Shown here piece by piece: positions 25,353 through 29,366 of a stretch of 64,000 nt of DNA. The translations under genes were made by a program, and so were the position numbers. The notes under the pieces are model-generated. The model did not search any database and was not told the origin of the DNA. It saw only the letters and a list, made by a program, of their open reading frames with translations. The DNA comes from Nitriliruptoraceae bacterium (GTDB taxonomy: Bacteria; Actinomycetota; Nitriliruptoria; Nitriliruptorales; Nitriliruptoraceae), in the NCBI GenBank assembly GCA_018401275.1, contig JAGYKW010000001.1:372001-436000 (forward strand), written 5' to 3'. Numbering within the stretch: position 1 is the first letter of the stretch; each line of letters starts with the position of its first letter.

Positions 25353-26309
25353 ATGATCGAACGGCCGGTCACCGTCACACCCGCGCAGCGACGCGTCGTC
25401 GACGAGGTGCTCGCCTGGGGCGCGCAGCGACCCCTCCCGCCCGACGGGCTCGCTGAGCGGCTGCTCGCGCGTATGACGGCAGCGATGGGCGAGTGGATCG
25501 CGCTGCGGACGGAACGCGGCCCGGCTGCCCCGCGCCCGCTGCTCGTGACGAAGACGCGCCTGTCGCGACTCGTGTGCGACGGGCTGCAGCGCGAACCAGA
25601 GCCCTACGTGCATGCCTGGGCGAACGTCCGCGGCACGATGGTCCACGCGGCCATCGAGTCCGACGTGGACGGCGCGCGCTCCGAGCCGGCCGTGGCCGTC
25701 GTCGAGCGGGCGTGGCACCGCCTGGCGACCGACCGTCCGGGCGACCCGGCGTCGATCGGTGCCTGGTTGAACGCGCGTGACGCGGGTGAGCGCGCGACGC
25801 TCATCGACGAGTCCGTCGCGCTCCTGACCGGCTTCCGGGAGGTGTGGCCCGAGCTGCGCGACGCCCCGCTGCGCGTGCGCACCGAGCAGCGCCTCGTCGT
25901 CATGCTCGCCGGCCGGGCGGTGCGCCTCCAGGGCGTCCCGGACCTGATCGTCGAGAGCCACGTGGAGGACGGCCGCGCACGCCGGCTGCTCATCGACCTC
26001 AAGACCGGCATGCCGCGCGGCCAGCGCGACCGCGACGAGCTGCGGTTCTACGCGCTGCTCGCCACGCTCGCGGGTGGTGCGCCGCCCTTCCGTTGGGCGA
26101 CGCTGTACGTGACCGAGGGCCGGCTCGAGCACGAGGACCTCTCGGAGGCCGTGCTGATGACTGCCGCGCAGCGCGTCGCGGACGCGGTCCAGCAGGCGGT
26201 CCGGCTCGAGACCGTCGCAGCGGAGGCCGAGGGCGAGCAGCTCGCCGGTGGCGCGTGGTGCGCTGGCTGCCGGCGGCGCGCCCGGTGTCCGGTCGCAGCT
26301 GCTGGATAG
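25353..26309 (+). CDS. Stand-alone Fe-S PD-(D/E)XK nuclease (Cas4/AddB/RecB-like)
   Basis: 318 residues from the ATG at 25353; frames upstream are the out-of-frame end of gltB. The nuclease core is complete: His98 (GTMVHAAIE), Glu178 (TEQRL), Asp197 (GVPDLI), Asp215-x-Lys217 (IDLKTG) and Arg/Tyr at 231–233 (RFYALL). One cysteine precedes the core (Cys75) and three follow it in the pattern C-x2-C-x5-C (303, 306, 312). That arrangement is the 4Fe-4S clamp of AddB, Cas4 and Dna2-type nucleases. There is no helicase domain and no cas gene nearby. It would cut or resect DNA ends, in repair or defence. Its TAG stop forms part of the next gene's −10, and the next gene encodes a HIRAN domain. Confidence 0.85.
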   Translation: MIERPVTVTPAQRRVVDEVLAWGAQRPLPPDGLAERLLARMTAAMGEWIALRTERGPAAPRPLLVTKTRLSRLVCDGLQREPEPYVHAWANVRGTMVHAAIESDVDGARSEPAVAVVERAWHRLATDRPGDPASIGAWLNARDAGERATLIDESVALLTGFREVWPELRDAPLRVRTEQRLVVMLAGRAVRLQGVPDLIVESHVEDGRARRLLIDLKTGMPRGQRDRDELRFYALLATLAGGAPPFRWATLYVTEGRLEHEDLSEAVLMTAAQRVADAVQQAVRLETVAAEAEGEQLAGGAWCAGCRRRARCPVAAAG

Positions 26310-26312
26310 GGT
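26307..26312 (+). promoter_or_regulatory. −10 element for the HIRAN gene, built on the nuclease stop codon
   Basis: TAGGGT: its first three bases are the TAG stop of the nuclease gene. Seven bases separate it from the ATG at 26320, predicting a leaderless mRNA. Confidence 0.5.
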
Positions 26313-26319
26313 GCTGCGC

Positions 26320-26745
26320 ATGCGCACCTCCCTCCCCGCCTTCCACACCCCGGTGCGCGGCTACGCGTTCGCCGCCGTCCCTCCGCCCCGCACGGCCGTG
26401 CTGGAGGCGGGCACACCGGTGGCGCTGCTGAGGGAGCCGGACAACCCGGCGGACCCGCTGGCCGTCGGCGTGTGGCTGCTCGAGGGCGGGCGGCCGCGCT
26501 GGCGTCTGGGCTACCTCGACCGCACCGTCGCGTCCCGGATCGCACCACGACTCGATGCGGGCGTCGGCGTCGATGCCGTGCTCGACGGCTGGGTGGAGGA
26601 GCCGGACGGTCGCTGGCGTCGGCCGCTGCTTCATCTGCGTCCGGTGGCCGAGGAGGTCGCGGTTCCGGCGCCGGATGACGCCCGGCGCTCGCTGCGTCGT
26701 CAGCCGCCGGGGGTGCAGCGCCGGCGCGTGCGGCGTCGCGGCTGA
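26320..26745 (+). CDS. HIRAN-domain protein
   Basis: 141 residues. Residues ~25–95 match the HIRAN pattern: an opening strand (VALLREPDNPADPLAVGVW) and the later RLGYLDRTVASRIAPRLDAG block. HIRAN domains bind single-stranded 3' DNA ends or stalled forks and usually sit in helicases such as HLTF or next to nucleases; here the domain stands alone. The C-terminal ~30 residues are very basic (RRLRR-type runs ending QRRRVRRRG), suiting nucleic-acid contact. It has no ribosome site, and the −10 is seven bases from the ATG. The gene follows the Fe-S nuclease by ten bases, which suggests a two-component DNA-end processing unit. Confidence 0.75.
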   Translation: MRTSLPAFHTPVRGYAFAAVPPPRTAVLEAGTPVALLREPDNPADPLAVGVWLLEGGRPRWRLGYLDRTVASRIAPRLDAGVGVDAVLDGWVEEPDGRWRRPLLHLRPVAEEVAVPAPDDARRSLRRQPPGVQRRRVRRRG

Positions 26746-26757
26746 ACCGGAGCGCCC

Positions 26758-28590
26758 TCAGTCCGTCGAGGCCACCGGCAGGCCCGGAGCGGATGGAGCC
26801 GTCGGGCCGACCTCGACGATGCGCTGCTGCGGCAGATAGACGGTCGTCCAGCGTTCGACGGACGCGTCCGCGGTGGCGTCGAGCGGTGTCCGCGTCCGGC
26901 TGACGCTCAACGTGAAGCCGTCCCCTCCGGACTGGACGACCCGCTGTGAGCCGGGGCCGAGGTCGGGCGCGACGCGGATGACCTCCGAGAACGTCGTCGG
27001 GTCACGCGGGTCGCCGTGGTCGGCGCGGACGGACTCCCAGGTGGGCACGCCGTACAGCGACACGGTGATCGAGTCGGGGGTGTGGGCGGTGCGGAGCACG
27101 AGCCATCCGGGGGTGTCGTTGAGGAAGCGGACGTCGAGCTCAGGGAAGTTCAACGTCGCCTCGCGGCCGGCCGGGTAGCGCGAGATGAAGAACGAGTGCG
27201 GCTGCCACTGCTCGAGGGGCAGTCCGGCGAAGAAGGCCGCGTTGAGGATCGTGGTGCCGAACTGGGAGACCCCGCCCCCGCACGTGTCGACGAGCTCGCC
27301 GCGGATGATCGTGCCCGCGGGGACGAACCCGTCCTCGCAGCGTCGCGGGCCGGAGGCGCCGTTCACGGAGAACTCCTCGCCGGGCGCGATGAGCCGGTCA
27401 TCGAGGAGGTCCGCGAGCAGCCGGATGTTGATCGCCCGTTCCGTATCCGCCGCATGGGCCGTCGTGAACGTGCCCAGCAGATGCGTCGGTCGTCCCTCGA
27501 GGGCGGCGGCCGTCGTGAGCGCGGGTCCGCGCTCGACCACGCCCGCAGGGGCCACACGTCTGCCGGTGGTCACGAGCTCCGCGATCCGGGCGGCGGTGCG
27601 CGTCGCAGCGAAGACGACCTGGCTGACGCCGCGCTCGATGGCGATGTCGGTCGGGACGGGAGCGAAGGTGACGGAGGACAGGTCACGCAGCTCGACGGAG
27701 GGCGGTCGTTCGGTGAGGAATCGGGCGTCCACCGCTGGCCGATCGAAGGTCGAGCGTCCGACATCGCCCAGTGCTGCGCGGACGCGGTCGACCGGGACGT
27801 CGATGACCGGGCGCAGTTCGCCATCGACGATCGCGCCGGTCACCACGATCAGGCCTGCGAGCACCTGGGGGTCGATGACCAGACGGCGCTCCTGGTGGTG
27901 CAGCACGAACGGTCCCTCGAGGGCCTGCGTGATGAGGGACGCGACCTGCTCGATGTGGGCGAAGGTGCTCGGTGGTGGGGAGAGCGACGTCACGAGCTCG
28001 ACGCGGTCGACGTCCGGATCGAGCAGCGCGGCACGGAGGCGGTCGGCACTGGCGACGCGATCGACGATCACACCGCCGACCGGACCGCTCCACCGCACCG
28101 CGAGCGTGACGGGGTCGATGCTGACCTCACCGACGCTCGGCTGGCGTTCGATCCGGTCGGCGGTCGCGGCGATCCAGGCCTGCAGCTGCTGCTCATCGAC
28201 GCTGCCGCGGGGGGCGACCTCGACGCGATGCAGGGATGCGGTGAGGCGTGCGGCGAGTGCATGGATGTCCGCGGTCCGACCACGTGCGGATGCGGCCTCG
28301 GCCGTGGCCGCCGCGTCGAGCGAGAGCCCCGCCTCGCGTGGTCGCAGCAGGATGCGCTGGCCGGGTGCGCTGACCGCGATCGGGCGGCCGGTCTCGCGCT
28401 CGAGGGCGGGCGTAAGCAGGCGCTGTGCGCTCGACACGTCGCGACCCCCGACGTCGACCCCTGCGACGGTGGTGCCAGGAAGGATGCGCCCGGCCTGCGC
28501 GATGGTGACGAGGAGCAGGGCTGCGAGCGCGACGGCGACGGCGCTGGCGCCGATGGTCAGCGCCCGCACGAGGTGCTGGCGGCTCGGCAC
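26758..28590 (-). CDS. VanW-family protein with peptidoglycan-binding-like repeats
   Basis: 610 residues from the GTG at 28590. Order: a single membrane anchor (residues ~8–30), then two PG_binding_4/YoaR-like domains (~35–370, each beginning near motifs such as GTTVAGVDVGG), then the VanW domain (~375–520, with EFSVNGASGPR, CGGGVSQFGTTILNAAFFAG and the PHSFFISRYPAGREAT block). The protein should face outward and contact the cell wall; VanW proteins occur in vancomycin-resistance loci and many Gram-positives but have no proven reaction. The open frame extends further upstream, but those codons lie beyond the promoter at 28623–28628 and are not translated. Confidence 0.9.
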   Translation of the reverse strand: MPSRQHLVRALTIGASAVAVALAALLLVTIAQAGRILPGTTVAGVDVGGRDVSSAQRLLTPALERETGRPIAVSAPGQRILLRPREAGLSLDAAATAEAASARGRTADIHALAARLTASLHRVEVAPRGSVDEQQLQAWIAATADRIERQPSVGEVSIDPVTLAVRWSGPVGGVIVDRVASADRLRAALLDPDVDRVELVTSLSPPPSTFAHIEQVASLITQALEGPFVLHHQERRLVIDPQVLAGLIVVTGAIVDGELRPVIDVPVDRVRAALGDVGRSTFDRPAVDARFLTERPPSVELRDLSSVTFAPVPTDIAIERGVSQVVFAATRTAARIAELVTTGRRVAPAGVVERGPALTTAAALEGRPTHLLGTFTTAHAADTERAINIRLLADLLDDRLIAPGEEFSVNGASGPRRCEDGFVPAGTIIRGELVDTCGGGVSQFGTTILNAAFFAGLPLEQWQPHSFFISRYPAGREATLNFPELDVRFLNDTPGWLVLRTAHTPDSITVSLYGVPTWESVRADHGDPRDPTTFSEVIRVAPDLGPGSQRVVQSGGDGFTLSVSRTRTPLDATADASVERWTTVYLPQQRIVEVGPTAPSAPGLPVASTD

Positions 28591-28622
28591 GGTGAGGGGT
28601 TCCTGCGGCAGATGAGTACCCG

Positions 28623-28646
28623 AGCGTATCTGCGCGGGTCTACGCT
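28623..28646. promoter_or_regulatory. Divergent −10 pair (VanW protein / zinc-finger protein)
   Basis: Minus strand: TACGCT at 28623–28628, start near 28616, 26 bases before the VanW-protein GTG. Plus strand: TACGCT at 28641–28646, six bases before the ATG at 28653, so leaderless. The same hexamer is used in both directions 18 bases apart. Confidence 0.5.
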
Positions 28647-28652
28647 CCTCCG

Positions 28653-29366
28653 ATGGATCTTCACGCCCGTTTCGAGCAGCTCGCCCTGTCCCACGTGCTC
28701 GGTGGGCTCGCGCGGGGTGATGCCGACGAGTTCCGGTCCCACCTGCGGGCCTGCGTCGACTGTCGCGCACGGGTCGCGGAGCTGCGAGGGATCTCGAGCA
28801 CGCTCGATGCCGCCGCGCGTGAGGAGCGGCGCCGCGCCGCGCAGGAACCGCCGGGACGTCGCGACTCGTCGCCGGGAGCACCTGCTCCTCGGGGCCCGAG
28901 TCGCCTGGGTGTCGTGCTCGCCTCGGCCGTGCTCGTGCTCGGGTTCGCGTTCTGGAACCTTCACCTGCGCACGAGCGCGGACGCCTACCTCACGGTCGCC
29001 GAGGATCGCGGCGCCATCCTGCGCGACCTCGCCGTCGGGACGCTCATCGACGACCCGTCGTTCGCTCCGATCTCGGCCCGCGCGGCGGTCACCGGTGCGC
29101 GCGTCGTGCTCGTGATCGCCGACGGCGGCCCGCTGGGATCCGACGAGCGACTGGTCGCCTGGCTCCTCCCGCTCGGTTCGAGCACGGAGCAGACCGTCGT
29201 GCTCGCCGTCGGACCGAGCCCGACCACGGAGATCGCGGTGCGCATCGAGCGCGGCGCCGCGAGCACCCTCGTCGTCACGCGAGAACGCGGCCTGCTGTCC
29301 TCCAGCGGCCCTCGTGGGGCCGAGATCCTGCGGGTCCCGCTACCTTTCGCGGTCCCGGGCACGTAG
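28653..29366 (+). CDS. Zinc-finger (ZAS-type) anti-sigma-like membrane protein
   Basis: 237 residues. The N-terminal ~40 residues carry the anti-sigma zinc-binding pattern H-x3-C-x2-C (His30, Cys34, Cys37, in RSHLRACVDC). A basic linker, one membrane helix (~85–103, VVLASAVLVLGFAFW) and an extracytoplasmic domain rich in β-strands follow. This is the layout of RskA/RsiW-like factors that hold an ECF sigma factor, but no sigma-factor gene lies beside it, so the partner is elsewhere or the protein senses something else. It is predicted leaderless. The gene's last three codons and stop (29357–29366) lie inside the tRNA-Val gene that follows. Confidence 0.8.
   Translation: MDLHARFEQLALSHVLGGLARGDADEFRSHLRACVDCRARVAELRGISSTLDAAAREERRRAAQEPPGRRDSSPGAPAPRGPSRLGVVLASAVLVLGFAFWNLHLRTSADAYLTVAEDRGAILRDLAVGTLIDDPSFAPISARAAVTGARVVLVIADGGPLGSDERLVAWLLPLGSSTEQTVVLAVGPSPTTEIAVRIERGAASTLVVTRERGLLSSSGPRGAEILRVPLPFAVPGT

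Follow-up and report, generated by a model that had tools for sequence, protein, structure and literature searches.

In AdnAB, AddAB and RecBCD, a PD-(D/E)XK nuclease is joined to a UvrD-like motor, either within one protein or within one operon. Stand-alone Cas4-type nucleases, including the Argonaute-associated protein ACE1, are single-domain enzymes. HLTF is a human protein that senses stalled DNA replication. Its HIRAN domain binds a dinucleotide of single-stranded DNA, on which tyrosines Y72 and Y93 stack (PMC4666394), and prokaryotic HIRAN domains have been called uncharacterised (PMC11090510). In Gram-positive bacteria small HIRAN genes lie beside an effector or nuclease, as in the HIRAN (HipI)–HipA and diDNase–HIRAN–HipA clusters. 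The founding HIRAN paper, by Iyer in 2006, reportedly notes a fusion of HIRAN to a nuclease of the restriction fold. Here we describe a locus of a Nitriliruptoraceae bacterium in a window of 64,000 nucleotides (GCA_018401275.1, contig JAGYKW010000001.1, positions 372,001 to 436,000), in which a gene for a stand-alone PD-(D/E)XK nuclease is followed by a gene for a stand-alone HIRAN protein. The pair is conserved within one family, where the HIRAN gene has been kept even beside nucleases that have lost their active site. We propose that the two genes constitute a two-component unit for processing DNA ends or stalled forks in this Nitriliruptorales-type family, a proposal that we consider evenly poised. 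A description of a HIRAN–Cas4 or HIRAN–RecB operon was not found in the open-licence literature, although subscription journals may hold one; Stenotrophomonas phages are described as carrying both gene types in one replication module, about 20 genes apart in DLP4.

The two proteins and their closest relatives

The original prediction had placed a two-gene unit at 25353-26745, and both open reading frames are found there (Table 1). Pfam assignments and predicted folds concur in an AdnA/AddB/Cas4-type nuclease and an HLTF-type HIRAN protein. The nuclease passes the Pfam threshold for PDDEXK_1 (PF12705; E=9.6e-17, 62.2 bits, gathering cut-off 22). Its catalytic core is complete (H98, D197, D215 and K217) and four cysteines (C75, C303, C306 and C312) form the pattern C...C-x2-C-x5-C, just as had been predicted; in the alignment these cysteines are kept in relatives outside the decayed lineages described below. 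Judged by its residues, the enzyme of the window organism is probably catalytically active, and the cysteines would hold a predicted 4Fe-4S cluster. The AlphaFold2 model has a mean predicted local distance difference test score (pLDDT) of 90, with low values at residues 300-318. Its best PDB match is the AdnA nuclease domain (Z 14.9, over model residues 50-314), and further fold matches are ACE1 (Z 14.2), Dna2 (Z 13.7) and AddB (Z 12.8). Sequence searches of PDB gave no match for the nuclease, and NCBIfam holds no name for it or for the HIRAN protein. An Rv2119-like identity was considered as a candidate.

How does this nuclease compare with the described enzymes? It shares the PD-(D/E)XK fold, the superfamily and the type of cysteine cluster with the AdnA nuclease domain of mycobacterial AdnAB, as well as with AddB and Dna2, but it forms a protein by itself, with no motor domain attached, has ~19% identity to AdnA, and belongs to an organism that encodes RecBCD elsewhere. 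With stand-alone Cas4-type nucleases such as ACE1 it has in common the single-domain build and a similar length; identity is, however, 11-13%, no Argonaute or Cas1 link was found, and the partner is a HIRAN protein. Cas1, by which a CRISPR Cas4 would be recognised, was found nowhere in the small, reduced window genome (1.73 Mb, 39 contigs). There is no UvrD-family motor near the pair or within the window, and all UvrD-family matches of the genome lie outside it, as do its other PDDEXK_1 matches, which include two further stand-alone PDDEXK_1 proteins. The predicted absence of a helicase partner is true of the neighbourhood only, because a complete recC-recB-recD operon is located ~200 kb from the pair.

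The HIRAN protein likewise passes its Pfam threshold (PF08797; E=4.3e-9, 36.5 bits, gathering cut-off 24.7). It consists of a barrel (residues ~8-110) followed by a linker and, at the C terminus, a conserved PPGVxRRR tail (~129-136). Its model (pLDDT 83) is closest to Lactobacillus lp_0118 (Z 13.4) and the HLTF HIRAN domain (Z 11.7). By profile alignment, HLTF residues N91 and D94, which we take to belong to the HIRAN binding pocket, correspond to N42 and D45, both invariant in 26 relatives, so that HLTF-type binding of DNA ends is possible for the window protein. The more specific suggestion that it could recognise 3' ends is uncertain, because P21 and A44 take the place of the two tyrosines with which HLTF clamps the dinucleotide. 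The window protein further differs from HLTF in standing alone and in its extra tail. Residues 124-136 of this tail are kept across the family beyond the barrel, even beside a dead nuclease; the motif could serve to bind a partner or DNA. A further resemblance of the model, to the C-terminal part of HamB (8vxy_B 1092-1168) from the Hachiman defence system, has Z 7.2, below a trustworthy level, and matches of the HIRAN protein to butyrophilin (E 0.1-0.4) were dismissed as chance.

Conservation of the pair within one family

All 35 genomes of the family sample were searched. Of these, 29 carry the nuclease and 28 the HIRAN protein; 27 genomes have both, two the nuclease only, one the HIRAN gene only (at a contig edge) and five neither (Fisher's test, p = 0.0004, uncorrected for kinship). 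A weak extra HIRAN match in G005 is located elsewhere in that genome. Wherever both genes lie on one contig (24 of 24 genomes) the nuclease gene precedes the HIRAN gene on the same strand, and in three more genomes the pair genes fall at contig ends. The original prediction had named loss of this neighbourhood among relatives as its own point of failure; within the family it is conserved. In 22 of the 24 no more than 300 bp separate the genes; G011 (565 bp) and G010 (1791 bp) have wider gaps. In six family genomes start and stop overlap by 4 bp, and all these distances depend on the start chosen. The adjacency of the pair exceeds chance.

The genomes that lack one or both genes are informative about the origin of the pair. 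In G020, G008 (g6) and G004 (g2) profile searches detected no remnant of either gene at a locus that persists: the VanW and methyltransferase genes are still present in all three, and DsbA follows directly in G020 and G008. G005 and G017 have the nuclease without HIRAN, and their VanW gene is located elsewhere. A VanW tree that served as a proxy for the species phylogeny places these five genomes outside the HIRAN-bearing clade (93/88; distant outgroup, root unsure). Most simply, therefore, HIRAN was gained a single time, at the base of that clade.

The main rival to a functional link is that a housekeeping RecB-family exonuclease and a HIRAN protein with a separate role are unrelated neighbours, held together by slow change of gene order. 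The VanW-family gene stays beside HIRAN almost as constantly as the nuclease does, so that part of the linkage is plain synteny, and the order of other genes of the block is also kept. Such passive linkage fits poorly with the overlapping or nearly overlapping reading frames of many genomes and with the joint absence of both genes from a recognisable locus in g2 and g6. The genes upstream of the pair vary among genera and the pair persists; moreover, nuclease identity to the window copy falls to 35-50% across most of the family, which implies ample time for rearrangement. We regard unrelated neighbours as an unlikely but serious explanation.

Active-site loss in HIRAN-paired nucleases

All HIRAN-less relatives in the alignment retain H98, D197, D215 and K217, and all retain the four cysteines except L096, whose frame is broken after K217. 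Among HIRAN-paired nucleases, in contrast, catalytic residues have been lost in ~11 of 27, against none of the unpaired ones; the figure counts genomes, not independent events of loss. The nuclease of G006 has lost H98, that of G007 H98, D197 and K217, those of G018 and G030 H98 and K217, that of G026 H98, D215 and K217, and that of G012 D197 (G026 and G012 read by eye). G013, G024, G028, G034 and G015 have lost catalytic residues and, in addition, the cysteines (G028 by eye). HIRAN is kept in every lineage with a residue-losing nuclease. The VanW tree joins G007 and the intact G019 as sisters (99/99), and there have therefore been at least two active-site losses, probably three when G012 is counted. 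Most decayed copies group together in the nuclease tree (92/90), a grouping to which long-branch attraction may contribute. The decayed copies are under purifying selection: the ratio of nonsynonymous to synonymous substitution rates (dN/dS, NG86) is 0.28 and 0.34 in genus g11 and 0.19 in g4, compared with 0.08-0.23 for intact pairs and 0.15-0.27 for HIRAN, whose values the 0.28-0.34 of the dead copies approaches.

Because several lineages with the pair have a decayed nuclease active site, maintenance of the pair does not depend on catalysis everywhere. HIRAN conserved beside a dead nuclease would also be expected of unrelated neighbours. It speaks against a different proposal, in which HIRAN is an antitoxin- or inhibitor-like regulator of the nuclease, as proposed for HIRAN (HipI) beside HipA kinases: next to a catalytically dead enzyme nothing is left to inhibit. 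The same nuclease, moreover, exists without HIRAN throughout the sister families, and the nuclease gene comes first. The HipA clusters resemble our pair in placing a small HIRAN gene beside an effector or nuclease, but no HipA or DEDD nuclease was seen beside it and it is not on a mobile element. A regulatory role of this kind is improbable.

A more radical variant of our proposal is a bacterial sensor of DNA ends or forks in which HIRAN carries the conserved function and a RecB/Cas4-type nuclease repeatedly became a non-catalytic, DNA-binding scaffold, even losing its Fe-S cluster, so that a lineage-specific end-recognition complex would have evolved from an end-resection nuclease. We advance this variant tentatively and think it unlikely.

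Wider distribution, locus setting and possible function

Searches of a phylum sample of 296 genomes recovered nuclease relatives in 65, while strong matches to the window-type HIRAN came only from the family; examined from the HIRAN side, the flanks of HIRAN loci from these genomes contain such a nuclease only within the window's family. The nuclease is also present in 12 searched genomes of the class outside the family, all without a HIRAN partner. In 11 of the 12 a same-strand Ku gene lies upstream within ~2 kb (for G053 and G040 judged from coordinates), usually separated from the nuclease by FxsA and sometimes by RsgA; there is no Ku match in the twelfth, G043, or in the window's own genus. 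The original prediction had suggested looking for adjacent Fe-S-nuclease/HIRAN pairs across Actinobacteria; conservation as neighbours is confined to one family, and other lineages have the nuclease without HIRAN, close to Ku in the sister families. This order hints that the stand-alone nuclease may be linked to end joining, and it is a hint rather than proof because other genes of the block are also syntenic. In sister families (L085-L087, L089-L096) the order Ku, FxsA, (RsgA), nuclease is conserved. Ku and VanW were assigned by profile matches; FxsA, RsgA, DsbA and the methyltransferase were named by reading translated sequences. A VanW gene is likewise the neighbour of a distant PDDEXK_1 protein in G102 (L188).

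Another nuclease–HIRAN link occurs elsewhere in the phylum. Large proteins of other Actinomycetota join RecJ, HIRAN and a DEAD-box helicase (Table 1), and large HIRAN open reading frames in L192, L194 and L196 cluster with them; no description of this fusion was found in the open-licence literature. Like our pair they join HIRAN to a DNA-end nuclease, but in one polypeptide, with a DHH-type nuclease and a helicase in place of the PD-(D/E)XK enzyme.

Table 1. Coordinates of the pair and of associated features
Feature	Coordinates	Strand	Description
Stand-alone PD-(D/E)XK nuclease, AdnA/AddB/Cas4-type	window 25353..26309	+	318 amino acids; PF12705, residues, AlphaFold2 model
Stand-alone HIRAN protein	window 26320..26745	+	141 amino acids; PF08797, model, family alignment
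HIRAN tail, residues 124-136	window ~26689-26727		family consensus LWGRPPGVRRRRV
VanW-family gene	window 26758-28881	-	profile match; convergent, adjoins HIRAN in nearly all family genomes
recC-recB-recD operon	G000:C1:188029-196723 (L201)		complete
RecJ-HIRAN-DEAD fusion	L190:5609-9232	-	~1200 amino acids; RecJ (DHH, DHHA1, RecJ_OB), HIRAN, DEAD-box helicase by Pfam
RecJ-HIRAN-DEAD fusion	L195:6204-9932	+	~1200 amino acids; same Pfam domains as L190

Could the pair be a new kind of anti-phage defence module, as the original prediction had entertained? The nuclease has a weak, generic and partial match to the PADLOC profile DruK (6.7e-8), and the HIRAN protein a weak partial one to PDC-M03B (0.013); the resemblance of the nuclease fold to ACE1 points in the same direction. 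However, the system partners of Druantia, to which DruK belongs, were not found beside the pair, and none of the scanned neighbouring genes has a PADLOC match at 1e-10. The locus is a housekeeping one without a mobile or island setting: glutamate synthase lies upstream and VanW downstream, with CDP-alcohol phosphatidyltransferase, glycosyltransferase, SOR/SNZ and ruvA-ruvB genes further along the window. The pair is nearly universal in the family, where it has been passed on vertically, and the genome is without cas1. Viral contigs scanned with the HIRAN alignment contained no relative, phage records gave no match to HIRAN and plasmid records none to the nuclease; two weak partial matches to HIRAN on plasmid records were the only ones. 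A defence function is thus not supported, and we hold it to be very improbable.

What might the pair do, if it is a unit for processing DNA ends or stalled forks? The ancestral nuclease may have been a housekeeping exonuclease that stood alone, belonged to the RecB/AdnA/Cas4 superfamily and carried an Fe-S staple; its gene would have lain downstream of Ku, as in the sister families. In the window's family a co-oriented HIRAN gene would have arrived directly downstream of it. The HIRAN protein may bind an exposed DNA end or a junction of single- and double-stranded DNA and so position the nuclease, which would trim the end where its residues are intact; an active-site-decayed nuclease would remain as a non-catalytic, DNA-binding scaffold. 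RecC, which is related to RecB-type nucleases but inactivated, sets a precedent. The protein families, folds, motifs, adjacency, joint absence and repeated loss of the active site under lasting purifying selection are observed; a physical complex of the two proteins, its substrate and polarity, the Fe-S cluster and a role in repair are inferred. Several points weigh against such a unit: the near-equal fidelity of VanW; the confinement of the pairing to one family, whose lineages are therefore not independent tests; the replacement of both HLTF clamp tyrosines; and the FxsA and sometimes RsgA genes between Ku and the nuclease in sister families, which suggest that the Ku link may be positional. 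Overall, the observation behind the original prediction is confirmed and its interpretation partly supported. A fixed pairing of HIRAN with a DNA-end nuclease, complete with naturally dead variants, offers a direct test of bacterial HIRAN function: through it one can ask whether a bacterial HIRAN protein binds ends, recruits a nuclease, or acts without catalysis.
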